A DNA stretch of 64,000 bases from a virus, in IMG/VR virus record IMGVR_UViG_3300035181_000357, positions 1-64,000 of that record; one strand, 5' to 3'. A model generated the notes under the pieces. That model worked only from the letters and a program-made list of their open reading frames with translations. It made no database searches and was not told where the DNA came from. The translations under genes were made by a program, and so were the position numbers. This document shows, one piece after another, positions 5,426-58,815 of this stretch (the first letter of the stretch is position 1; every line of letters begins with the position of its first letter).

Positions 5426-6106
5426 CTAGACTGGCAATGAGATTCTAAATAGCTGAATTATTCTAGAAAATGCCCCAGAGTTATCCGTGGTCACACGTAG
5501 ACTGAGATTCCCAACAGAAATAATGGAATCGAAGGATGTTCCACAGGCAACGCCTATTGCACATCCAACAGTCTGGAATATGTTTACGTTTGTACCATCG
5601 TGAATTAGATAAATTTGACCTGTCTCATATCCAGAATTATCAGAATTTCTAATAGAATAAGTATATTGGACTGCTCTATAAACTGCTATTGCCAACGAAT
5701 CGATAATAATATTTGGAGAATTGGTGTTCACTGTTGCAGAAAAATTACTGGTGAAGATTGGAGCTTCTACTGATCCTGTAAATTCTGTAGTTCGATCTGC
5801 ATTTATTCTGGCTATGTCAGCATTAGAAGAATCACGAACAACAAATACAGTATTTAAAGTATCATAGCCTTTAAAACTAACAGGACCAAGCGCATTAGTA
5901 ATGGTGATGTTGGTACCACCATTATATGCTCCCTGTAGACTTCCACTAGTTCCAGAACCACCGACGACCAACGATGGATCGATCTTCCCATCGACCCCTG
6001 TGATTACTACTTTACCAGCATCCGCTATTCCAGTACTAACGTCAACAGTAAATATCTGTCCAAACGTAGCTGGGTTATTGGGATTCCTGGTAAGAAGAGT
6101 ATACAA
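5426..6106 (-). CDS. Tail-fibre-associated structural protein, 226 aa
   Basis: A Ser/Thr/Asn/Gly-rich protein. Residues 1-50 contain a start typical of phage fibre proteins (NPNNPATFGQIFTVD, then GKVVITGVDGKIDPSLV). A central part with NTVFVVRDSSNADIARI and TTEFTGSVEAP resembles sequence found just before chaperone-type or trimerising ends of phage fibres. It lies 32 bases upstream of the large fibre gene, with which it is probably cotranscribed. A short fibre or fibre-tip protein is likely; no catalytic motif is visible. Confidence 0.6.
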   Translation of the reverse strand: MYTLLTRNPNNPATFGQIFTVDVSTGIADAGKVVITGVDGKIDPSLVVGGSGTSGSLQGAYNGGTNITITNALGPVSFKGYDTLNTVFVVRDSSNADIARINADRTTEFTGSVEAPIFTSNFSATVNTNSPNIIIDSLAIAVYRAVQYTYSIRNSDNSGYETGQIYLIHDGTNVNIFQTVGCAIGVACGTSFDSIISVGNLSLRVTTDNSGAFSRIIQLFRISLPV

Positions 6107-6646: not shown

Positions 6647-7586
6647 ACAACGCCTCTTCTATCAAGCTAAAGATAGTCCTACTAGTATGGAGTCTGAATC
6701 CTGCAGCACGATCATGGCCTCCACCACCTTTGAATGTACTAGCTATATATCCTGCACTAATTTTATCATTAGAACGTAAGCTAACAGATAAACCTATCTC
6801 GGTCTTACCATCTAATGTAATGTTCCTAAGTTCCCAACCTACGATCAAGTCCATGCCATCTAGACGCAACATCTCGGCCAGATCACTGATACTCGAGTCT
6901 CCATTATAGAAGGCCACATTGAAACCATTTATAGTTTTTAGTATACAGTTCTTTTTACGATTTAATGTTCTTAACTGATCTGTCTTGAACATGATAGAAG
7001 CCAGCTGTCTGTCATGTGGGGTTGGAATCCCATAGTATGAATTACCAAGCAGATTTAGATATAGAGATTGAGATCTAGACTCCTCGAATCTGGGATCATC
7101 AGATAGGAAACAATCAGCAATCCCTGCTAGCTCAGCTGCAGAAGTATCATCGCTAGAAATCCACGAAAACTGTAGTGCGACTTCATAAGCAAGAACAGCC
7201 CCAGACTCACCCTTACTATTAAGTCCGAACAGAATCTGGTTGGGATATTTTTCAATATAAGGAGCCAGATCAGCCAATCTACTGACATGGTGATCCAAAA
7301 TCTTCGCACCAGCTTTTAAGAAATCCTCTAACTGATCTGCTGGAGGACATGTATCCACAAACAGAGAATTCTCTGTAACGGATATTTTCTTATATGCTGT
7401 AACAGGATATAAGAAATCTGCATTATCCATGTTCTCGAACGGGACATACTTAAGTAGAAGATTTCTACCCATGATACCATCAGGACAGTAACTGTGAAAA
7501 TATAGTCTCTTAGTCTTCTCAATATTCTCTGAGAAATCCGACAACATGTCATCATTAATTATCTCTAACTGGTCTAATCTTAACAT
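6615..7586 (-). CDS. DHH/DHHA1-family phosphoesterase
   Basis: A two-domain phosphoesterase of the RecJ / NrnA / GdpP superfamily. Counting from ATG 7586: HSYCPDG (H31, D36), VDTCPP (D78), the DHH triad (98-100), and near the C-terminus GGGGHDRAAGF of the DHHA1 domain. Substrates in the family include nanoRNA, pAp and cyclic dinucleotides; the sequence does not say which applies here. The frame is open further upstream to a GTG at 7628, but that stretch is the hairpin at 7605-7626, and ATG 7586 has GAGG 8 bases upstream, so I chose 7586 (323 residues). It overlaps CoaD. Possible roles are nucleotide recycling or destroying a defence signal; both are inference. Confidence 0.85.
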   Translation of the reverse strand: MLRLDQLEIINDDMLSDFSENIEKTKRLYFHSYCPDGIMGRNLLLKYVPFENMDNADFLYPVTAYKKISVTENSLFVDTCPPADQLEDFLKAGAKILDHHVSRLADLAPYIEKYPNQILFGLNSKGESGAVLAYEVALQFSWISSDDTSAAELAGIADCFLSDDPRFEESRSQSLYLNLLGNSYYGIPTPHDRQLASIMFKTDQLRTLNRKKNCILKTINGFNVAFYNGDSSISDLAEMLRLDGMDLIVGWELRNITLDGKTEIGLSVSLRSNDKISAGYIASTFKGGGGHDRAAGFRLHTSRTIFSLIEEALYGEGIICWVV

Positions 7587-12509: not shown

Positions 12510-12525
12510 AACTTCCGGAACAAAA

Positions 12526-12605
12526 GAGAAGAGAAGAGAAGAGAAGAGAAGAGAAGAGAAGAGAAGAGAAGAGAAGAGAAGAGAAGAGAAGAGAAGAGAA
12601 GAGAA
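12526..12605. repeat. (GAGAA)16 pentanucleotide repeat
   Basis: Sixteen perfect consecutive copies of GAGAA on the plus strand (TTCTC on the transcribed message), followed by a partial copy. It sits wholly in the 5' leader of the sbcD-like gene, between the deaminase and sbcD. The tract is all purine on one strand and mirror symmetric, so it can in principle form a triplex, and its copy number should be prone to slippage. As it is outside coding sequence, changes in length would change spacing or mRNA structure, not frame. Confidence 0.95.
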
Positions 12606-12615
12606 GAAATCTTGA

Positions 12616-13484: not shown

Positions 13485-14660
13485 TTAAACCTCTACTTTA
13501 AACATGTAACCACACTTAGGGCATTCTACTTTTGACGCTTGTTCTATCTGTTCTTGCTTACGGAGATCCTTTAAATCTCCTGATGTAGATTCTAAATCTG
13601 ATGATACTGTATCTAAGTCATTTTTGAGCAGCTTCAATAACCTGATATATCCGATGTAGTTGGGAAGTAACAGACACGCCGTATCTAGGTCTAGCAATTT
13701 CTTCTTATCTTTATTCAAGGAATCAGTGTCTAGAGCCTTAGTATCCAGGGTCACACTCTTTTTATTATATACATCTAAGAGGTATACAATAGAAGATAGT
13801 CTGGATTGTTTGTTTACAAGCTCCACTAGTTCCTTGAATGTTTCTAAACTTTTAGAAGATAAAGAATACGCGTACCTTGAATATCTATATGTGGATAGTA
13901 GACTAGATACCTTAGAGTTATTGGCTACAGGAGTCAAATCAAAATCTAGAACATCTATCTCAGATTTAGTCTCTACTAACTTATCTAGTTTATCAGATGT
14001 GATTAAAAATGTATCGACACAATCTACTGTGTCTAACAGTTCATTGTTCCTAGAATCCAATTTCTTTAAAGTTTTGGAAACAGGTTTAGCTTGTTCCAAG
14101 AACATACTTAGTTTATGTGCTTTAGCCTCTGCATCAGTTATCATCTTAGCCGTTACTTTAGCCTCTACATCTAGTTCTTTTATCTTCGTACCGATCCTTT
14201 TCTTACCTTGATCTAATTTCTCTGTTGAAGAAAATGCACCCAACACAGTGTTCAAATCAGCTGGTGAACTACAAAGAAGGAATTGATTATCAAACTGACC
14301 ACCAAAGATGGGATCAAGCTCGACATTCCCAATATGGATAGAAGAGTACCCCATCTTAGCAACAGCTTCTGGGATATTCCCTGCGAGCTTCCCATACTCT
14401 ACACCGTTCACGGTATAAGTAGTAGCAGCCTTCGTAGTTCTTTTAGCAACGACAGTGTTCTTATCAAAAGAGATAGAAACAGCTAATTCTGTCTCACCTA
14501 TCTTGATCTTGTTAGCACCGATATCATTCCTAAATGTTCCACGAATCATTCGAAATACAGAAGACTTACCAATATCTGAGGGACCCACTATAGCAGTGAA
14601 TCCCTCGATATCAAGAAATGCATCTGACCAAGATTGAAAGTTAGATGCTTGTACTCGCAT
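13485..14660 (-). CDS. SbcC/Rad50 N-terminal half (ATPase Walker A, coil, zinc hook)
   Basis: A 391-residue protein that matches only the first half of SbcC/Rad50. Residues 1-20 form the first strand, GPSDIGKSS (26-34) is the Walker A, and FDNQFLL (about 122-128) fits the Q-loop. Residues about 145-375 are largely helical, and the C-terminus has CPKCGYMF (about 381-388), the CxxC zinc hook where the Rad50 chain normally turns back. No ABC signature or Walker B follows; these occur in 32508-33227, about 18 kb away. Its stop is immediately followed, in frame, by the ATG of a coiled-coil gene. It begins in a one-base overlap with recA. Expected partner: the SbcD-like nuclease at 11520-12509. Confidence 0.85.
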   Translation of the reverse strand: MRVQASNFQSWSDAFLDIEGFTAIVGPSDIGKSSVFRMIRGTFRNDIGANKIKIGETELAVSISFDKNTVVAKRTTKAATTYTVNGVEYGKLAGNIPEAVAKMGYSSIHIGNVELDPIFGGQFDNQFLLCSSPADLNTVLGAFSSTEKLDQGKKRIGTKIKELDVEAKVTAKMITDAEAKAHKLSMFLEQAKPVSKTLKKLDSRNNELLDTVDCVDTFLITSDKLDKLVETKSEIDVLDFDLTPVANNSKVSSLLSTYRYSRYAYSLSSKSLETFKELVELVNKQSRLSSIVYLLDVYNKKSVTLDTKALDTDSLNKDKKKLLDLDTACLLLPNYIGYIRLLKLLKNDLDTVSSDLESTSGDLKDLRKQEQIEQASKVECPKCGYMFKVEV

Positions 14661-15913
14661 TAGAACTCGTCTTCATCGTCTAAAATATCAGCGGATCCAT
14701 CGAATTCAGCGATATCTACACCATCTTCTTTGTGACCAGCCACTAACATCTCACCCTCGGTCAATACCGTATCAAAGGCTCCAGAATTATCAGAACGAAT
14801 GACTTCAACGAGCTGAGCTTTCAATCTGGTTAAGACCTCGAGATTTTCATCATAGACTAGATCTCTTACAGCCTGTTCCTTGTTGTCGTAGGTAGCGATG
14901 ATGTCTTCGTCGATCCCGACGAGCCACTTCTGACCCTTGTTCCTAATAAGACCATAACTACGAGCAAGCTCACGAACAGACATCCAATCATCAAGGCCAC
15001 GACCAGTTCTAAGATAGATAGAGTATTCTCTGTAGCTACCCATCGTAACCTTGTTCTTAAGAACTCGAACCTTGACCTTGGTAGCTTTGACACTCTTTGA
15101 GCTATTACTGTCAGACTCTGCTTCCATCAAGAAAGGATCGTCCACAGCACCCTTTAAAGCCTTCTGAGCATTGACTTCGATCATCAAAGATGGGACGTAG
15201 CGAACACTGTTTCCACCAGGTAGAACATATGGTAGATTGGTGTAAGATGGGTACTTTTGAGCCATAGCAGCCTCTTGACTACCATCGATACGAGCACGAA
15301 TCTGATTAACCATCAAGAATGAACAATCATGCTGCATTGCATATGGTAAAAGAATATCGAAGAAACGAACCATCATACGAGCGTGTTCTCCGACGCTTGC
15401 CTTGAAAGCTTGACCACTGCGGATGTCCTTCTTGTCTCGCTTCTGCTTCATCTTTGGAATGGAGTCGAATACGAACAGCTTACATCCGGCTTCAATGTAC
15501 TCCACAGCCTTCTGAATACAGTCCTCAATATCCGAGATCTTGAATACAGCGAGACCTGGACCAGTATTAACACCGACATTCTTAAGGTATTCGAAGGTGA
15601 CAGTTCCTTCAAAGTCGAAGATTACTGCAGGTAATCCAGTTTCTTTCTGGTAATTCTTCACCAAGTGATAACAGATAGTTGATTTACCGCCATGTTCTTT
15701 ACCATGAATATGGATTACACGACCACCAAAGGGGATACCTTGTAATCTTAGAACTTCATCCCAGACAATCGAATTGGTTGGGACCTTATGTTCTTGGTAA
15801 TTCTCGTCGATTAGGAACGAATTCGCATCATCTTTATACGATGCAGATAAAGAGGCAAACCTTGTCATCACATCACCACTAAGATCTTCTGATTTTGTTT
15901 TCTTTCTTGCCAT
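14660..15913 (-). CDS. recA: RecA/UvsX-like recombinase
   Basis: A 417-residue strand-exchange ATPase. GKEHGGKST (71-79) is the Walker A, preceded by the typical GGRVIHIHG strand. VIFDFEGTV and LFVFDSIP give the next conserved strands, the latter being the Walker B, and LMVNQIRARI matches the RecA/Sak4 'NQ' strand after loop 1. The C-terminal 50 residues are acidic (ending DILDDEDEF), as in RecA, where such a tail modulates DNA binding. The protein forms filaments on ssDNA and drives recombination-dependent replication and repair. It is in one operon with the RuvC-like gene upstream and sbcC-N downstream. Confidence 0.9.
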   Translation of the reverse strand: MARKKTKSEDLSGDVMTRFASLSASYKDDANSFLIDENYQEHKVPTNSIVWDEVLRLQGIPFGGRVIHIHGKEHGGKSTICYHLVKNYQKETGLPAVIFDFEGTVTFEYLKNVGVNTGPGLAVFKISDIEDCIQKAVEYIEAGCKLFVFDSIPKMKQKRDKKDIRSGQAFKASVGEHARMMVRFFDILLPYAMQHDCSFLMVNQIRARIDGSQEAAMAQKYPSYTNLPYVLPGGNSVRYVPSLMIEVNAQKALKGAVDDPFLMEAESDSNSSKSVKATKVKVRVLKNKVTMGSYREYSIYLRTGRGLDDWMSVRELARSYGLIRNKGQKWLVGIDEDIIATYDNKEQAVRDLVYDENLEVLTRLKAQLVEVIRSDNSGAFDTVLTEGEMLVAGHKEDGVDIAEFDGSADILDDEDEF

Positions 15914-17028: not shown

Positions 17029-17076
17029 GTATTCTCCTATGAGAATACCCAGACCCTGATCGCAGAGTCTGGGTAT
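17029..17076 (-). promoter_or_regulatory. Two overlapping hairpins before the 101-aa gene
   Basis: On the minus strand, a 10-bp stem (17045-17054 with 17067-17076) follows the stop of the ssDNA-binding candidate. A second 8-bp stem (17029-17036 with 17041-17048) holds the AGGAG of the next gene in its 3' half. The two stems share bases 17045-17048, so they exclude each other. When the first forms, the ribosome binding site is freed; when the second forms, it is hidden. This reads as an attenuator or translation switch, or as a partial terminator after a highly expressed gene. Confidence 0.5.
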
Positions 17077-17089
17077 AATTTCTTGCATC

Positions 17090-17920
17090 TTAGATGTCTT
17101 CAATCTCGTCGATATCAGACTCGTCGTCATCACCCTTGTTAGCAGCGGTGAGGTAGCCATTCAGCTCAGCCTTGGTGATCTTCTTAGGAAGACGCTTGCT
17201 CAACTTAACACCATCAAGATGAGATACTAACTCTTCCTTGACAGCAGAAACGAGCTCAGGATTTGACAGATACTTGGCCTTTGAACTGATCCTAGTGTAG
17301 TCATACCCAATACCAGAATTTGGCTGGAACATCAAGATATCGATACCATATACAGTTCCATCTTCCTCAGCAAGTCTGCTGATCTTGGCATACTGCGTTC
17401 TGGAAAGCTTGATGTATTTGATCTTGAACTCAACAGGCTGATCCTTGCGAAGCTTACCATCCTTGAGACTGGCGTTCGTATAATGAAGAACCAGTGCCAC
17501 GATGTCTAAACCTGGATCTCCGAGAGCTACACAGCACTTGGCCTTTGGAGCCTTCTTGTCAGAATGATCGGTTAAGCAGCGGAAACTACCCTTGCCCTCG
17601 ACATAGTGACTATATGCTCTCTTTGGCTTGACTTCAGAAAGAATAGTGAATCTTGCGAACTGCTCTTTCTCCTTGACTTCCAGACGTTCCAGGAAGCCAG
17701 TATTCTTCATTAACTCTTCGTCACCGAAGTCAACATCATCTTCGTCATCGATAGCTGGCTTTGATGATTTCTTAGGCTTAGGACTCTCATCCTCGTCATC
17801 GTCGATGACGACTTTCTTCTTCTTGACGACTACTTCCTCTTCATCCTCGTCACGGACTTGTTTCTTCTTAGGCTTCGGAGTGATTTCCTCATCCTCTAAG
17901 TCTTCATCATATTGTGCCAT
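17090..17920 (-). CDS. Acidic-tailed ssDNA-binding protein candidate, 276 aa
   Basis: The N-terminal 80 residues are a low-complexity charged region of alternating acidic and KKK stretches. The core (about 80-235) starts FLERLEVKEKEQFARFTIL, then HYVEGKGSFRCL, CCVALGDPG and VLHYTN, a pattern I associate from memory with phage gp32-like or ssDNA-binding proteins; the end is acidic (DDDESDIDEIEDI), typical of SSB tails that recruit partners. The frame extends upstream to 17995, but ATG 17920 has AGGAG 7 bases before it and the extra segment coincides with the leader hairpins. Neighbours are HU-like, RuvC-like and RecA-like genes. The ssDNA-binding role is inferred. Confidence 0.65.
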   Translation of the reverse strand: MAQYDEDLEDEEITPKPKKKQVRDEDEEEVVVKKKKVVIDDDEDESPKPKKSSKPAIDDEDDVDFGDEELMKNTGFLERLEVKEKEQFARFTILSEVKPKRAYSHYVEGKGSFRCLTDHSDKKAPKAKCCVALGDPGLDIVALVLHYTNASLKDGKLRKDQPVEFKIKYIKLSRTQYAKISRLAEEDGTVYGIDILMFQPNSGIGYDYTRISSKAKYLSNPELVSAVKEELVSHLDGVKLSKRLPKKITKAELNGYLTAANKGDDDESDIDEIEDI

Positions 17921-18014
17921 CGTTGGCTCCTTTTGTTGGCTGGTTCTCAATTCTGAGAACGATGTCGGTATAAGCTTGATACTCTTCTTTAACATCGTTC
18001 TCAGACCTTTTCAT
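17907..18014 (-). CDS. Possible leader peptide or small protein, 35 aa
   Basis: An ATG at 18014 preceded by GGATTT opens a 35-codon frame that ends at TGA 17907, 14 bases inside the following gene, so its translation would be coupled to that gene. The peptide is charged (starts MKRSENDVKEEYQAYTD). Both arms of the 12-bp leader stem (17953-17964 and 17993-18004) lie within it, so ribosome movement could decide which hairpin forms. It may equally be chance coding in a structured leader. Confidence 0.3.
   Translation of the reverse strand: MKRSENDVKEEYQAYTDIVLRIENQPTKGANDGTI
17943..18004 (-). promoter_or_regulatory. Leader with mutually exclusive hairpins before the ssDNA-binding candidate
   Basis: In transcript order there are three related segments: CTGAGAACGATG (18004-17993 on the message), then CATCGTTCTCAG (17964-17953), then TGAGAAC (17949-17943). 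Segment 2 can pair perfectly with segment 1 (12 bp, 28-base loop) or with segment 3 (7 bp, 4-base loop). The gene's AGGAG follows 10-15 bases later. This is the layout of an attenuator or a translational operator, similar in idea to the autoregulated leader of T4 gene 32, though no shared sequence is claimed. A DNA operator recognised by a dimeric protein is the alternative. Confidence 0.55.
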
Positions 18015-18028
18015 AAATCCAGTCTAGA

Positions 18029-18352
18029 TTAAGCCTGGACCTTTTCTAGTTCACGAAGCTGTGAGCTAGCTAGGAACTTGATCTTACGCTTTGGCTGGCC
18101 CATCTTCTGCTCGCCAGTCTTAGGAACCTTAACCATCTTAGCTGGCTTGTGGGTTACACGGAACTGACCGAATCCATGGATCTTGAACTTGAAACCATCG
18201 GTAGCAACGTTAGCAGCTAGGATGTCATGGACGGCAGAGAGTACGGCTTCTACGGTTTCAGTAGCGGCCTTGGCGGTAGGAAGGTTTAGCTTTTCCTTTA
18301 CGAGAGCCTCTAGCTCTTTACGGTTAGCTTCTGTCTTTAGTAGTTCAGTCAT
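18029..18352 (-). CDS. HU/IHF-family DNA-binding protein
   Basis: A 107-residue member of the HU/IHF family (usual length about 90). The helical N-terminus (to about residue 50) provides the dimer body, then FKFKIHGFGQFRVTHKPAKMVKVPKTGE forms the strand pair and the start of the DNA-binding arm (only the core GFGQFRV is diagnostic), and the C-terminus returns as KIKFLASSQLRELE. The arm has several Lys and Pro residues that would contact and bend DNA. It precedes the ssDNA-binding candidate. Phage HU-like proteins help to fold or replicate the genome; the exact role here is not known. Confidence 0.85.
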   Translation of the reverse strand: MTELLKTEANRKELEALVKEKLNLPTAKAATETVEAVLSAVHDILAANVATDGFKFKIHGFGQFRVTHKPAKMVKVPKTGEQKMGQPKRKIKFLASSQLRELEKVQA

Positions 18353-18392: not shown

Positions 18393-19676
18393 TCAGATGA
18401 TGTCTTCCAAATCATCATCGTTGAATACAGGTTTAGGGCTGATACCCTTTGCTGGCTTTTCCACTTGCTTTAATTTGAATTGTTCTTGAGCCATTGAAAT
18501 TGCAGGAAAATCATCGTCGTCATCAGCAACTGGAATAGCATCCTTTGAAGAACTAGCAGATACCTCGAAATCCTTAGGAGGTGCTGTTACCTTAGTTGCT
18601 TTCTTAAAGAGGATAGGCTCGTCATCATCTTCTTCTACAGGAGGTAGCGATTTTCCTTCTGTCTTTGTTACCTTGTTATCCTCAACCTTTATCTTACCAA
18701 GGAATGGATCATCGACCACAGCAACTACGATTGGAGATACCTCTTGAACCGTTCTCTTGACGATCTTTTTGTGGGCTTCGACCATTGCTACTTGATCTTC
18801 AGAGAAGTCAACGGCTGGAGAGAATTCGGTTTCTTCCTTTTCGAAGACTACATCTTGTTCAGGATCGGCCATTTGATTCTTGAAAGCATCATCAATCACA
18901 TGATTCTGAATAATGATATCTTCTGGATCTTCCTCATCATTAAGAGCCTTATACAATACAGGCTCGTCGTCATCTACCTCTTCTTCAGGTAGAGGTGGCT
19001 GCTTAAAATGTTCCCCATATCTTTCTTGAAGCTTCTGATATTTAGGTAATCTGACAGCTTCATTTCCAAACTCAGAAGGAGGAGCTATGTTAGAGATCGA
19101 GGCATTAACCTGATCCTTAGCCATCTTGTACTTCTCTTGAGCCAGATTCTTGTGTGACTTTAACATACCAAGATGAATCTCAACTGACTGAATCATAGCC
19201 TCAATATCTAGGTCCTGACCCTTCATCAATCGGCTGAATTCTGAGTCTCCGAGAGACTTGATCGCTGAGATAGGAATCTTGATCTCGTTTGATCTAAGAG
19301 CCTGTGATAACGCGATTTGATACCAGGCACTGAATGTAGCACCAACATTTTCAACACTCTTCTGAATACTCTTTAGACGAGACTGAAAGAATACTGCCTT
19401 TACTGATACCTGTTCTAATTGGTCTAGAACTTCTTGTAACGTGTTCGTAACAGACAGAATGTAAGCATATTCAGTACCAGGTGCGATCGTAGAATTTAGA
19501 TCGAAGGACTTAAGATTACCAATATCCTTTCGGAGTAGATTGAAATAGTCTCCGACAGATACTTGACCATCTTCTGTTTGATAATTCAAACTCTCGCAGA
19601 TCTGATTTATCTGATCCAAAATAGGAGCACCAGACAACAGGACTTCAGCAGAAAATAATTGTACATTTATGTTCAT
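18393..19676 (-). CDS. Hypothetical acidic protein, 427 aa
   Basis: Not recognised. Residues 1-195 are helical with probable coiled coil. The rest is a disordered, highly acidic region with repeated short motifs (DDDEPVLYKA, DDDEPILFKK, VVDDPFLGK, ending NDDDLEDII). The repeated D/E-P-V/I-L-F/Y-K motif resembles a peptide docking motif used in several copies. The frame begins 12 bases further upstream, but ATG 19676 forms an ATGA overlap with the previous stop and has GGAAG before it, so I chose that start. By position it may be a replication or recombination scaffold. Confidence 0.7.
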   Translation of the reverse strand: MNINVQLFSAEVLLSGAPILDQINQICESLNYQTEDGQVSVGDYFNLLRKDIGNLKSFDLNSTIAPGTEYAYILSVTNTLQEVLDQLEQVSVKAVFFQSRLKSIQKSVENVGATFSAWYQIALSQALRSNEIKIPISAIKSLGDSEFSRLMKGQDLDIEAMIQSVEIHLGMLKSHKNLAQEKYKMAKDQVNASISNIAPPSEFGNEAVRLPKYQKLQERYGEHFKQPPLPEEEVDDDEPVLYKALNDEEDPEDIIIQNHVIDDAFKNQMADPEQDVVFEKEETEFSPAVDFSEDQVAMVEAHKKIVKRTVQEVSPIVVAVVDDPFLGKIKVEDNKVTKTEGKSLPPVEEDDDEPILFKKATKVTAPPKDFEVSASSSKDAIPVADDDDDFPAISMAQEQFKLKQVEKPAKGISPKPVFNDDDLEDII

Positions 19677-19984
19677 ACGAACTTCCATTTAATTGGATCA
19701 CAATCTGTTAATACATACTGGCTACCAATTCCTTTACTTTCTTTACATGGACCTAGTGCCCATACCACCTTAGTAACTAACTCCACAGGGGTTACAAATT
19801 CTGCTACAGGTACCGTCTTTTCATACACTAGAACGATCTCTCTGGTCTCGAAACCATCGGTAACCAGAGTCCCTGGAACTACCATTCTTTCTTCAAAGAA
19901 ATCTAGAACAGGTCTAAGAGTCTCCTTGCTTGCATATCCACAGAAGACATTGGATACTAAATTATACAATTCCTTAGTTTTCAT
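19673..19984 (-). CDS. Hypothetical protein, 103 aa
   Basis: Not recognised. A small alpha/beta protein; the N-terminal 30 residues are helical and the rest appears as strands (TREIVLVYEKTVPVAEFVTP). It overlaps the previous gene by 11 bases and the next by 4 (ATGA), so it is cotranslated in the replication operon. Confidence 0.65.
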   Translation of the reverse strand: MKTKELYNLVSNVFCGYASKETLRPVLDFFEERMVVPGTLVTDGFETREIVLVYEKTVPVAEFVTPVELVTKVVWALGPCKESKGIGSQYVLTDCDPIKWKFV

Positions 19985-41612: not shown

Positions 41613-43868
41613 TTAAACGCCTTCACCGCTACCTTCTAATCCAACTTCATCAGAATCTTTTTCTTCTAATCGTAAGCCCTTTGCAATCTTGGATTTCAGA
41701 TCAGTAGTATCGAGGAGCTGCTCATTAACACCTCCACCATAAATTGAGTCGAGAAGTTGATTAAACTTAGAGTCGTTGACTGTGAACAAATCCTCTTCCA
41801 GCTTTCTTCTGCAGGTCTCAGGATCAATGTTTAAGAATTCGTAGATAATCTCGATTGGTACAGCACCCTTTGAATAGAGGTTGAACAGCATCTCATATAC
41901 GTCACCAGAATCTCTTAAAGCTAATCTGGAGAAGTTGATCTTAGGATAGATCCAACGAGGTCTGTTGTAATTATCTAGTTCGAAGAATCCCTTCTTCATA
42001 GCGATCGGTTTGAAGAAATCCTTCTCCATCAGATTGGAGATCGTCTCTCTATATAAGACATATGTGGTATTTAAGAGTTCTAAATGAATTCTGTTACCAG
42101 AATAGAATCCTTCACCAGTAAGGAGATCAGGACTGAACCCCAAACCAGTGGATAAGTCGGCATTTGTATGAGTCCACTCAGAGTCTAGTGCTAGAATACG
42201 ACCCTCAGATCCGATCTCATTCCATGTTGCATCGTAGTTAACGACGATTGTGTAATCTGGATCAGATTTAGCCTCGTCAATATGGGCTCGAAGGGCCATA
42301 GTCTCAGTGCTGGATATATCTGGGGCTACCACCAGTGTCTTTGGTGTCATATTTCTACTGACAATGGTTGTCTGAACCTGCCTGAGCTTGTCACGATATA
42401 TTACAGTACGAAGACAACGCTGTAGAATTGAACGTCCATGGTCTTCATATGGAGCTTTCTTTCTAGCGAAATGGATTAAGAAGCTACCCTTTAAAGGATC
42501 TTGATTGAGTGGGATCTTCCCATCTGTTTCCAAGACATCTCTAGTATCTTTATCGATATTAGGATCCTTCATGAATGCTTCCTTCTGGAATTCAGAAGGT
42601 TCATAGAACACGACAGGACCATCACCGAATCTAGCATCTCTTCTGATCTCAACTCTATCAGGTGGGATCATCTGAATTCTGGACCAGCCGCTGTAATCTT
42701 TGTTTACAATGTGGGAAAACAGCTCGTACTCGTGTTCTCTAGCTTCTCGGATTACCTTTAACTCAGATAATAGTTCCTTTTTCTTCTCCAAGAGAACGAG
42801 GAGCTTCTGAAGATCAGCAATTTCTTCTTTATCATCACTTAATTCATCGTCGTCTTCTGGTGTTGGAGAAAGATCTGGATCCTCAGAATCAGGACTGGTC
42901 TGTTGTTGGAGGTTATCTCCTACACCTTGTTCCTGCTCCTGATCTTTCTCTTGCTGAATCTCTAATGGAGATCTCATCTCCTTAGCTGCATCAGCATTAC
43001 TATCTTCTTTGTCTGCCTCGTCACCAGGAAGAGCGATTTTCATCGCAGCTACCTTTGATTTTACTTTAGCGATCTTTGTCTTGAGCTTTAGATGTGCACT
43101 TCTTATCTGTTTTAGGAGATTACTCTCTGTTTCAGTAGAAAGGCCTAGTTTCTTAGCTTCACGTATCCTTGAAGACTTAGCTGGATTGATGAACTGAATG
43201 ATGTCCATGTCATCAATACCATTAGCAGGATGCATATCTCCTTCACCAGAAGATTGATCTCGATCTCCACCCTCTCCACGACCACCTCTAGCTTTGATCT
43301 GCTTAGCAGCCTCTTCGCAGAGTGGCACATCTTCTTCTGAATCTTCTACGTACAAGAAGGCCTCTCCAATCAACCAGTATTCTTTAGTTGCTTGAAGCAA
43401 AGAATCGAATAACTCGGTATCTGATACGAGAGCCTGATAGAAATCATAAATGTAATCGGTGAATGCCTCAGAACTAGATTTTGGCTTCTCCAAAATCATC
43501 TTAGACATAGGCAATTCAGTATGAAGATCGATTGCTCGGGATACGATAGGATCTCTATCATATGAGAGTCTGTAGAACTTTAATTCTTCTTTTCTAGATT
43601 GAGGTAATTCCAGGGAATCTACTGGAAATTCAAAATTATAGTATCCAATATTCTGTGAATCAGCGATGTCAGCAGAACCCAAACCACCATCACCAAAGAG
43701 AATAGCCTGTTTACGAATGCCACCAGTCTTGGAGACTCCTAAAGCTATCGATCCATCTTCATTTTGATAAGTATATGAACCTGCAGAAAATGGTTCAGGT
43801 TTCTTATTTCGAGAAGTTGGTCTAGCAGCAGTTTTTCTCTTCACAGGTTGTTTCTTTGGATCTGCCAT
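41613..43868 (-). CDS. Portal protein
   Basis: A 751-residue protein resembling T4-like (gp20-type) portals. FYRLSYDRDPIVSRAIDLHTELPM (about 92-115, of which DPIVSRAIDLHTELP is the conserved core) and YWLIGEAFLYVE match the region before the wing, and RILALDSEWTHTNADLSTGLGFSPDLLTGEGFYSG-type sequence near residue 560 marks the clip/stem area. A charged, low-complexity insertion (about 230-340, rich in D, E, Q) is coiled coil or disordered. The portal forms the dodecameric ring through which the terminase at 51136-52992 packs DNA. The first 35 residues are basic and may be disordered. Confidence 0.8.
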   Translation of the reverse strand: MADPKKQPVKRKTAARPTSRNKKPEPFSAGSYTYQNEDGSIALGVSKTGGIRKQAILFGDGGLGSADIADSQNIGYYNFEFPVDSLELPQSRKEELKFYRLSYDRDPIVSRAIDLHTELPMSKMILEKPKSSSEAFTDYIYDFYQALVSDTELFDSLLQATKEYWLIGEAFLYVEDSEEDVPLCEEAAKQIKARGGRGEGGDRDQSSGEGDMHPANGIDDMDIIQFINPAKSSRIREAKKLGLSTETESNLLKQIRSAHLKLKTKIAKVKSKVAAMKIALPGDEADKEDSNADAAKEMRSPLEIQQEKDQEQEQGVGDNLQQQTSPDSEDPDLSPTPEDDDELSDDKEEIADLQKLLVLLEKKKELLSELKVIREAREHEYELFSHIVNKDYSGWSRIQMIPPDRVEIRRDARFGDGPVVFYEPSEFQKEAFMKDPNIDKDTRDVLETDGKIPLNQDPLKGSFLIHFARKKAPYEDHGRSILQRCLRTVIYRDKLRQVQTTIVSRNMTPKTLVVAPDISSTETMALRAHIDEAKSDPDYTIVVNYDATWNEIGSEGRILALDSEWTHTNADLSTGLGFSPDLLTGEGFYSGNRIHLELLNTTYVLYRETISNLMEKDFFKPIAMKKGFFELDNYNRPRWIYPKINFSRLALRDSGDVYEMLFNLYSKGAVPIEIIYEFLNIDPETCRRKLEEDLFTVNDSKFNQLLDSIYGGGVNEQLLDTTDLKSKIAKGLRLEEKDSDEVGLEGSGEGV

Positions 43869-43921
43869 ATAAATACCTCTATCATAATAGGAAATGACAG
43901 TCTATTAATGTAATGCTGTGA

Positions 43922-47200: not shown

Positions 47201-47589
47201 TCATACCCATTAGAGCTTAAACAGATACCTGCAATCTCATTCCTAATCTTATAGGAACCATCTGGTTGCATAATGATTCTGTTATCCAGACCAGTGGTCT
47301 CAGTATCCACTGCGATCGCTGGCATTCTTTCACCAGTACGAGCTACCTCATACTTCTCTCCAGACATAACTGATTCTGCCCAGACATGGAGTTCCTTGGC
47401 ACTAGTTATTAGTCTGAACGCCTTCTTATTCATCCATGGGAATTTGATTGAATCGATTCCGGCCTTCTGAATAGCGTCTACGTGTCTGTTGAACACAGAC
47501 CTTAGATCGTTGGGCAATTTTTCTTTCTTGGCTTTCTTGACCAACTTCATATCGTCAATAGATATGTCCTCGGTGACTACTCTAGACAT
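44257..47589 (-). CDS. Family A DNA polymerase with 3'-5' exonuclease
   Basis: A 1110-residue replicative polymerase. The exonuclease domain has AIAVDTETTGL (D95, E97; Exo I), a YNAKYDKEVL segment (Exo II) and WYAAGDAICTWLL (Exo III). The polymerase has motif A DYSNIEMRVAA (about 568), motif B RSLAKILNFALLYGG (about 622; Arg, Lys, Phe and Tyr of the O-helix conserved, but Ala where Gly is usual) and motif C VHDEID (about 825). The Phe predicts good discrimination against dideoxynucleotides. No 5'-3' exonuclease is present. An insertion of about 60 residues with four cysteines lies before motif A, and about 240 extra residues follow the palm. It overlaps the CHC2 gene by 8 bases. Confidence 0.95.
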   Translation of the reverse strand: MSRVVTEDISIDDMKLVKKAKKEKLPNDLRSVFNRHVDAIQKAGIDSIKFPWMNKKAFRLITSAKELHVWAESVMSGEKYEVARTGERMPAIAVDTETTGLDNRIIMQPDGSYKIRNEIAGICLSSNGYEGIYVPITHEDGNNIDREECRQILQELFDKCLLIFYNAKYDKEVLKLLMNILIREYPYIEDVQVDAYLDDPKADMGDKGHAADGLKFQSKTRLDMDQIELKTLTSVKADYYNSETGKTTLRSQHAPFNWVPTDIALWYAAGDAICTWLLWDELRDSSRELKLAHKIDHELIDTITWIERQRFHVDVKKLKKTIKWHGGKLEVLKKELEEIAEWKKIEGEDGDVFNPSSPIQLVKILFKHKGFKPFRVSEKTKVPSTDAETLEELLKIHPDDLFLKKLMEYREYAALHPGNLSYDPVDHTARIYLRQCVVAGGRLSATGGEFEKDGGFGLNIQAIKRVEGNKWVQGRRINSVPEAQYDIKDLHPSCYNKEDDGTLKLAKGIKGNHYGEYFGDLFCLVPSCTSCEFIQGPDTTSEKVDSEEILNIRSLFIAKIGWTFFTTDYSNIEMRVAANISKEDNFVKEFLEGEGDFHSLTARAVFPEFSDPKTPKDRKKFLRSLAKILNFALLYGGTAYTIFESMKKVIKEITFDECKVMVDKYWEGVPQFAEWVYHKQKIAKESMICKTATGRIIKFESAMAAQKIYYPNAEHARNYRRWWEIKNSLKELESQEKAGEDVPPGAIARLRKAADTMYYDKSTGVRNMQDYKKFIGKIQRVSINIPLQGLAGDFMRMALNRIRHWSQSDPGIENVYELHGSVHDEIDYSVKNEYVPFVIPRLTRLMRLRDLHEKMKWIVPIECDTEYGRSWDVTEHLTGDDGHEPMAWTAISGLEEYIPGGTKSFNKIFEALQDPDKRDKALSYLEKNLHPRTQSAQQVLKSYLDKDVKTLRIKLIVCYQLDEFWGIDQELDDSKLETIAEYEERMGLDPKNRPELPAGGRLGTLSNPNVTIIKPVMKLVVETDEVEEEIEVAEPAHIPRREDEEPVEYEYHEDGFPFLRDDLRPEDFEELIKYLGIGNSKVVFGYKGKRSAIDKVFKKDIPDEFKKRKK

Positions 47590-48223
47590 TAAATTCTCCA
47601 GCTCTCAACCTTTGTTCCTTCAATCTCAAGATACTCCGAACCTTACTCAATCCCAGGACTCTTGCACAGGGTAATGGATCGTTAGATTTCTCACCTAGGA
47701 AGTAGAATCGCATAAGTTCCTTTACTAAACCAACCTTGTCTTCAGTCTCTGCAGCGACTAGTTCCGAAACTCGCCTAATATAAAGATCCTTCACATCAGT
47801 GAATTCCAAGAGGATGATATTCTCTTCTTCCACATCCTCTAAGTCGTCTTCCATCTTTGGAAGATTATATTTCTCTTCTAACCATTTAAGGGCTGCAACT
47901 CTTGTGGTGCCCATAAGTCGGGATACTAGTTTAGTATGATCCCAATATTGATCGCCAGGAGGACAACCGTAGCAATACGCGTCGTTAGATCGTTGGTACA
48001 AATGGAAACTTGGATTTGAATCACGTCCGTGAAATGGACATGAAATTGAATCACCTTTCGGAATCTTCCCAGTAACTTCTAGTGCCAGATCTCTGAAATC
48101 AATCAATTCTCTTATACGATCCCATCTCTTCTCAGAGATCTGCTTGTATGAAGAACCTAACAGTAATCTCGCTTCTTCTCTACTAAATTCTACATCCTCA
48201 ATGTCCTTGAAGTCTTCTGACAT
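47582..48223 (-). CDS. Free-standing DnaG zinc-binding (CHC2) domain protein
   Basis: A 213-residue protein whose core (about 35-115) is the CHC2 zinc-binding domain that opens bacterial DnaG: CPFHGRDSNPSFHLY (C62, H65) and YCYGCPPGDQYWD (C84, C87), followed by the typical helix with RVAALKWLEEKY. In DnaG this domain recognises the template initiation site. The TOPRIM core is missing here and lies in 24052-24942 and 31461-32228. The last 95 residues are helical, with LLEFTDVKDLYIRRVSELVA, possibly a docking arm for the split core. It directly precedes the polymerase gene. Confidence 0.8.
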   Translation of the reverse strand: MSEDFKDIEDVEFSREEARLLLGSSYKQISEKRWDRIRELIDFRDLALEVTGKIPKGDSISCPFHGRDSNPSFHLYQRSNDAYCYGCPPGDQYWDHTKLVSRLMGTTRVAALKWLEEKYNLPKMEDDLEDVEEENIILLEFTDVKDLYIRRVSELVAAETEDKVGLVKELMRFYFLGEKSNDPLPCARVLGLSKVRSILRLKEQRLRAGEFNV

Positions 48224-48259
48224 TTATTTCCTCTTAAGTCTTAGATACTTTAAAGGCTT

Positions 48260-48292
48260 GGACCCCGAGGTCGTTTAATTTCCTCGAGGTCC
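48260..48292 (-). terminator. 11-bp hairpin between sigma-like and CHC2 genes
   Basis: GGACCTCGAGG and CCTCGGGGTCC on the minus strand pair over 11 positions with one U-G wobble, separated by 11 bases. The wobble pairs only in minus-strand RNA (it would be C-A on plus), which supports function in the message. There is no U-run after it, so it may be a processing or stabilising structure or a partial terminator. Confidence 0.5.
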
Positions 48293-48322
48293 ATCTTGTC
48301 TTAATTAGCGTATTCTTTCCGG

Positions 48323-49144: not shown

Positions 49145-49205
49145 GGAGTTTGAAGTTGATACTCCTTGCTCATTATATCAGGGAGAATGAAATTCTAAAC
49201 AATCT

Positions 49206-50612: not shown

Positions 50613-50652
50613 AGTAATAGCCCGTAGATATTCTAATTATAAGGTAGGAAAC

Positions 50653-58751: not shown

Positions 58752-58815
58752 CCTAACTCCTAAATCTACAGATATAAGTCATCATAATAGGTAAGAGAAG
58801 TTATTTACATGTCTG

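Follow-up and report, generated by a model that had tools for sequence, protein, structure and literature searches.

A stable hairpin in the leader of a gp32-like gene from a large phage, tentatively read as a static mRNA boundary

The leader and its gene setting

Does the leader between an HU-like gene and a candidate single-stranded DNA-binding protein (SSB) gene act as a regulatory switch, or does it shape the message in a more ordinary way? The leader (108 nt; 17921..18028, minus strand) lies within a window of 64 kb, which is the whole stretch of DNA that was analysed and the first part of a 210,611-base virus record. A preliminary description had proposed that one leader segment could pair with either an upstream or a downstream partner while a short open reading frame (ORF) runs through it, which was taken as the logic of attenuation or translational autoregulation, with T4 gene 32 as the point of comparison. 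The sequence features that it named are indeed present at this place on the minus strand, where the genes follow the order up431 (18393-19688), HU-like DNA-binding protein gene (18029..18352; PF00216, E 2.9e-15), leader, SSB candidate (17090..17920), orf101, a RuvC-like gene (the name is taken from its relative in phage Tunturi_5), and a UvsX/RecA-like gene (14660-15913). Elsewhere in the window, an ORF at 2224-2562 resembles GIY-YIG homing endonucleases (phrog_7168, E 8.8e-14).

Profile searches of IMG/VR yielded 19 loci with the UvsX-like protein and 25 loci with the SSB family. All but one of the 19 UvsX loci include the SSB gene (18 in total; the exception, L137, is a short contig), and wherever the upstream gene was recognised in these relatives, SSB follows either HU or up431; the HU-like gene lies directly upstream of SSB in several of them, as it does here. 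In the GenBank phage collection, Tunturi_5 (PP885688.1) is the only member with an SSB relative, which is annotated as 'single strand DNA binding protein'; it is an Acidobacteriota phage of 308-309 kb (PMC11924767).

Structural kinship of the SSB candidate with gp32

The SSB candidate is a divergent protein of 276 aa, translated from ATG 17920-17918 behind the Shine-Dalgarno (SD) sequence AAAGGAG. Searches of Pfam and PHROG with 12 members of the family returned no match, and a sequence profile search of the PDB with the SSB returned no SSB. An AlphaFold model built from 13 sequences reached a mean pLDDT of 72, with the core (residues 78-262) mostly above 80. Foldseek gave no match for this model at E <= 0.001; when its candidates were structurally realigned, the four best chains were all gp32, aligned over 162-167 residues, namely the cores of RB69 gp32 (Z 10.5, with rmsd 3.4 over 167 residues, and Z 8.6) and of T4 gp32 (Z 10.0 and 9.1), and the next unrelated chain followed at Z 5.2. 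H105, C115, C129, and C130 are invariant in 13 family members and are candidates for a zinc site of one His and three Cys as in gp32-type proteins, with a spacing that differs from that in T4 gp32. The acidic N-terminal tail was modelled with low confidence and is probably disordered.

The earlier designation as an ssDNA-binding candidate thus gains support from the modelled resemblance to the RB69 and T4 gp32 cores. Since no member could be assigned to a Pfam or PHROG family, the model points to a gp32-type protein at the level of the fold only and not at that of the sequence family. The family occurs in about 15 distinct phage lineages beside HU, RuvC-like, and UvsX-like genes, and of more use than the leader itself is this gp32-fold SSB family, missed by Pfam and PHROGs, with its conserved HU/SSB/RuvC/UvsX setting in large phages and with hairpins on either side of the SSB message.

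A long hairpin dominates the leader

From 5' to 3', the leader RNA comprises the HU stop, ATG 18014, arm 1, a loop, arm 2, TGAGAAC, AAAGGAG, and the SSB ATG at 17920. Arm 1 (TCTGAGAACGATGT; 17992..18005, minus strand) is complementary at 14 of 14 positions to arm 2 (ACATCGTTCTCAGA; 17952..17965, minus strand), and the two form a perfect inverted repeat with 26 nt between them, predicted to fold into 15 pairs with a loop of 24-26. The upstream pairing had been given as perfect, which it is, but over 12 bp, a length that has to be extended to 14 bp. A perfect 14-bp repeat was found in none of 3000 dinucleotide shuffles of the 108-nt leader (shuffle maximum 12), the whole leader folds at -28.0 kcal/mol (z -3.8), and the leader hairpin, at -23.7 kcal/mol, is the most stable qualifying sense-strand hairpin of the window. 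An Rfam scan of the window at the gathering score gave 0 matches, and scanning the phage's own genome for the leader sequence retrieved nothing besides the leader's own arms.

Part of arm 2 (17954-17960, GTTCTCA) doubles as the 5' arm of a weak alternative hairpin, in which all 7 positions pair with arm 3 (TGAGAAC; 17943..17949, minus strand) across a loop of 4, so the downstream partner had been correctly recognised; a partner of at least 7 bp for arm 2 appeared in 62 of 5000 shuffles of the downstream flank (about 1%). The two structures are computed at -24.5 kcal/mol (long) versus -8.2 kcal/mol (short), a gap of about 16 kcal/mol, and with the 5' arm present the short hairpin has an ensemble probability of 6e-5. 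It dominates only in the absence of a free arm 1, and with arm 1 blocked its probability rises to 0.999. Co-transcriptional folding would also favour the long form, because arm 1 is transcribed first, then arm 2, and the 7-bp partner last.

The SSB SD lies outside both hairpins, and computed access to the ribosome site is constant. The SD is unpaired at 65-72% across the long-hairpin, arm-1-blocked, and loop-start states (0.70, 0.65, and 0.65, respectively), with the AUG at 0.41 in each, and forcing the short hairpin leaves the values essentially the same (SD from 0.70 to 0.65, AUG from 0.41 to 0.41). A U-tract was sought 3' of both stems and found behind neither, the long stem being followed by ATTGAGAACC and the short one by CAGCCAACAA. 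With ribosome-site access constant and no U-tract after either hairpin, no switch output is visible. Two candidates were rejected accordingly: a transcription attenuator, as neither of the mutually exclusive hairpins ends in a terminator U-tract, and a translational attenuator or RBS switch, as computed SD and AUG access is the same in all states. What survives of the earlier interpretation is a strong, non-random leader structure before a gene for a gp32-like product; attenuation or a two-state switch is not supported, given the rarity of the short form and these two observations.

The leader ORF and the leaders of relatives

The ORF that crosses the leader (17907..18014, minus strand) is as previously described, with 35 codons from ATG to TGA and its stop 14 nt inside the SSB gene. 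No AGGAG-type SD precedes its ATG at 18014, whereas the window's genes typically have one. Homologues were found neither in the phage collection nor elsewhere in the phage's own genome, and the ORF is absent in the relatives, whose leaders are mostly too short for it. Its codon usage is coding-like and on a par with true genes, but 40 of 926 off-frame windows free of stops (4%) match it. The ORF is probably not a regulatory leader peptide; it might be translated through coupling to termination of HU, whose stop lies 14 nt upstream. A two-state attenuation or coupling mechanism, in which a ribosome on this ORF covers arm 1 and the 7-bp hairpin then forms, appears very improbable. Arm 1 starts about 9 nt past the first base of the ORF and hence within ribosome cover, and blocking it does release the short hairpin, but the mechanism would have no output step, there being no terminator and no state that alters access to the SSB SD or AUG, and it would depend on an ORF that is not conserved and has no SD of the usual type.

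The SSB leaders of relatives are 0-123 nt long, their perfect inverted repeats do not exceed 7 bp (8 bp in Tunturi_5), and none of the 18 examined has the long leader hairpin. When IMG/VR was scanned for the stem pattern, 17 contigs were hit, none with an SSB relative, and a 14-base scan gave chance matches only. As far as these sequences tell, the hairpin is particular to this phage among those examined, and, because it is in no relative, selection on it is not demonstrable from them. This absence, together with the 0-123 nt leaders of relatives and the coding-like usage of the ORF (shared, as stated, by 4% of off-frame windows), would suit a lineage-specific insertion, palindrome, or remnant with no regulatory function, in which the 35-codon ORF is perhaps a small gene. 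We consider such an origin distinctly unlikely, since a perfect 14-bp repeat would be expected to decay without selection, the window's strongest hairpin adjoins a gene that also bears the second strongest, and the ORF has no relatives.

Hairpins on both sides of the SSB gene

The second strong hairpin lies directly after the SSB stop (17045..17076, minus strand), with 14 bp including G-U pairs, a loop of 4, and no U-tract. At -22.2 kcal/mol it is the second most stable qualifying sense-strand hairpin of the window; the window's two most stable computed hairpins on this strand thus flank one gene, SSB, immediately 5' and 3'. A stable hairpin without a U-tract at a cistron border is one feature of differential-decay hairpins, and one stands at each border of SSB. 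The third strongest (48259-48293; 12 bp, loop 11, no U-tract) is in the gap before the gene at 47582-48223.

In 14 of 18 relatives, the 110 nt past the SSB stop contain a hairpin at -16 kcal/mol or better, in many cases with a U-tract, a fraction that includes close kin and is not a count of independent lineages; for comparison, a hairpin at -14 kcal/mol or better was seen at 22 of 146 other gene ends. U-tailed or strong post-SSB hairpins were seen in L124, L125, L127, L003, and L001 (Tunturi_5), among others. By comparison of these loci, the 3' hairpin is recurrent in the SSB family, and this phage has the 5' hairpin in addition. Because the 3' hairpin is U-tailed and terminator-like in many relatives, what they have in common may be a terminator and not a protective structure.

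We tentatively favour, at somewhat less than even confidence, the reading that the leader hairpin is a static 5' boundary for mRNA stability and processing, which gives SSB its own protected mRNA segment. On the HU-SSB transcript, the leader hairpin would fold once its 3' arm is made and then persist, and together with the post-SSB hairpin it would bracket the SSB message and shield it from RNases, the 5' structure blocking 5'-end-dependent endonucleases and the 3' structure blocking 3'-5' exonucleases. Such a bracket would uncouple the stability of SSB mRNA from that of HU and of the downstream RuvC/UvsX genes, while the ribosome site of SSB would stay available, since the stretch of about 30 nt from hairpin to AUG in which it lies is loosely structured. 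Protection, processing, and a benefit of high SSB output are suggested here by analogy with E. coli operon hairpins and T4 gene 32 mRNA. In E. coli operons, 3' hairpins without U-tracts and structure at the 5' end stabilise individual segments, a middle gene in the papBA type (PMC5927463), and of all T4 messages that of gene 32 is the most stable, with RNase E cleavage at -71 and at the gene end (PMC3014915). In itself, the leader is probably an ordinary kind of mRNA-shaping hairpin.

Promoter-like motifs

Which hairpin exists depends on where the SSB mRNA starts, and a transcript starting inside the loop would leave the long hairpin outside the main mRNA. It is conceivable, though improbable in our estimation, that the element works at the DNA level, with the inverted repeat or the loop (AGAGTATCAAGCTTATA) serving as an operator or phage promoter and the SSB mRNA starting in the loop with only the 7-bp hairpin, which such a start would allow to form. 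Of 17 representative phages, 13 have AGTA[AT] in the 75 nt before SSB, against 4.9 expected (0 of 500 shuffles), in this window inside the hairpin loop, and CAGTAATCCNGG occurs only twice in the Tunturi_5 genome, before SSB and after the SSB terminator. However, the loop motif AGAGTATCAA is not enriched in the phage's own genome over a reversed control, motif discovery by EM returned the Shine-Dalgarno sequence only, and part of the AGTA signal falls within the end of the upstream coding sequence or shares bases with stop codons. No sigma-70-like promoter was listed in the leader.

Several further observations concern gaps between genes. In Tunturi_5 (5788-5796 and 6709-6717), CAGTAATCC is followed about 20 nt on by GGTATTAGC, both before SSB and after the terminator, and this repeated motif pair looks like a duplicated promoter-like module. 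In the window, the gene-preceding gaps at 43868-43921, 49145-49205, 50613-50652, and 58752-58815 share, by eye only, a sequence resembling TTYC-N-T-N-CCTATTATGATRA, for example CATTTCCTATTATGATAG and CTCTTACCTATTATGATGAC, which is a candidate phage promoter. In the gap at 12510-12615, which is almost unstructured, TCTCT-type repeats follow one another on the sense strand.

Comparison with autogenous operators and other known systems

The main functional rival to the static boundary, which we regard as unlikely though still worth weighing, is a translational operator, on which the gp32-like protein would land at the hairpin and spread over the unstructured ribosome region, so that its synthesis is repressed in the manner of T4 genes 32 and 43. 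The modelled likeness to the gp32 core is in keeping with it, as is a layout like that of the T4 operators, in which a folded 5' element is followed by a weakly structured ribosome site (PMC535899, PMC3014915). In the T4 gene 43 operator, a plain hairpin sits about 40 nt before the start, and the present stem ends 31 nt before it; that so simple an element suffices there is why we give the operator this much weight. On the other hand, pairing of the loop with its flanks in a pseudoknot scan was no better than in shuffles (4 bp Watson-Crick downstream), a simple scan around the ribosome site for UUAAA or UAAA repeats found a single UUAAA, located in the hairpin loop, the region before the AUG is 52% A+T, and relatives with the same protein family do not have the hairpin. 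The earlier comparison with T4 gene 32 is reasonable at the fold level but does not extend to the T4 pseudoknot or the UUAAA repeats. A more specific version, that a gp32-fold protein outside Pfam and PHROGs uses a plain long hairpin to repress its own translation, with an operator of independent origin standing in for the T4 pseudoknot, seems to us quite improbable.

The static boundary that we favour has close counterparts in the decay hairpins of the papBA/malEFG type, which are likewise stable, devoid of U-tracts, and placed at gene borders within a co-directional cluster; here, however, the arrangement is predicted from sequence, it belongs to a phage, and the 5' hairpin is not conserved. 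Tunturi_5 shares a related SSB (32% identity over the matched stretch), the same SSB-RuvC-UvsX order, an SSB leader of 104 nt, and a terminator-like hairpin after SSB. Its own inverted repeat differs in being perfect over 8 bp, including the SD, and unrelated in sequence, and it is marginal against shuffles, 93 of 3000 of which contain 8 bp or more.

The T4 gene 32 leader likewise precedes the gene of a gp32-fold protein, with a structured 5' element before a less structured ribosome region, and events occur at both ends of the message, as seen from the RNase E sites at -71 and +831. It differs in carrying a pseudoknot of about 28 nt where a plain 15-bp hairpin is predicted here, and in having UUAAA repeats before the AUG, and autoregulation, known for T4 gene 32, is not known here. 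The operator of T4/RB69 gene 43 differs in size, with a T4 hairpin-loop of 16-18 bases against 54 here, where the loop is large, and in serving a polymerase instead of an SSB, here a putative binder; it is alike in consisting of one hairpin, placed some 30-40 nt ahead of the start codon. For T4 relatives without the pseudoknot, the evolution of gp32-type control upon replacement of its RNA target was left open (PMC535899), and an autogenous operator at this leader, if true, would show how such control evolves.
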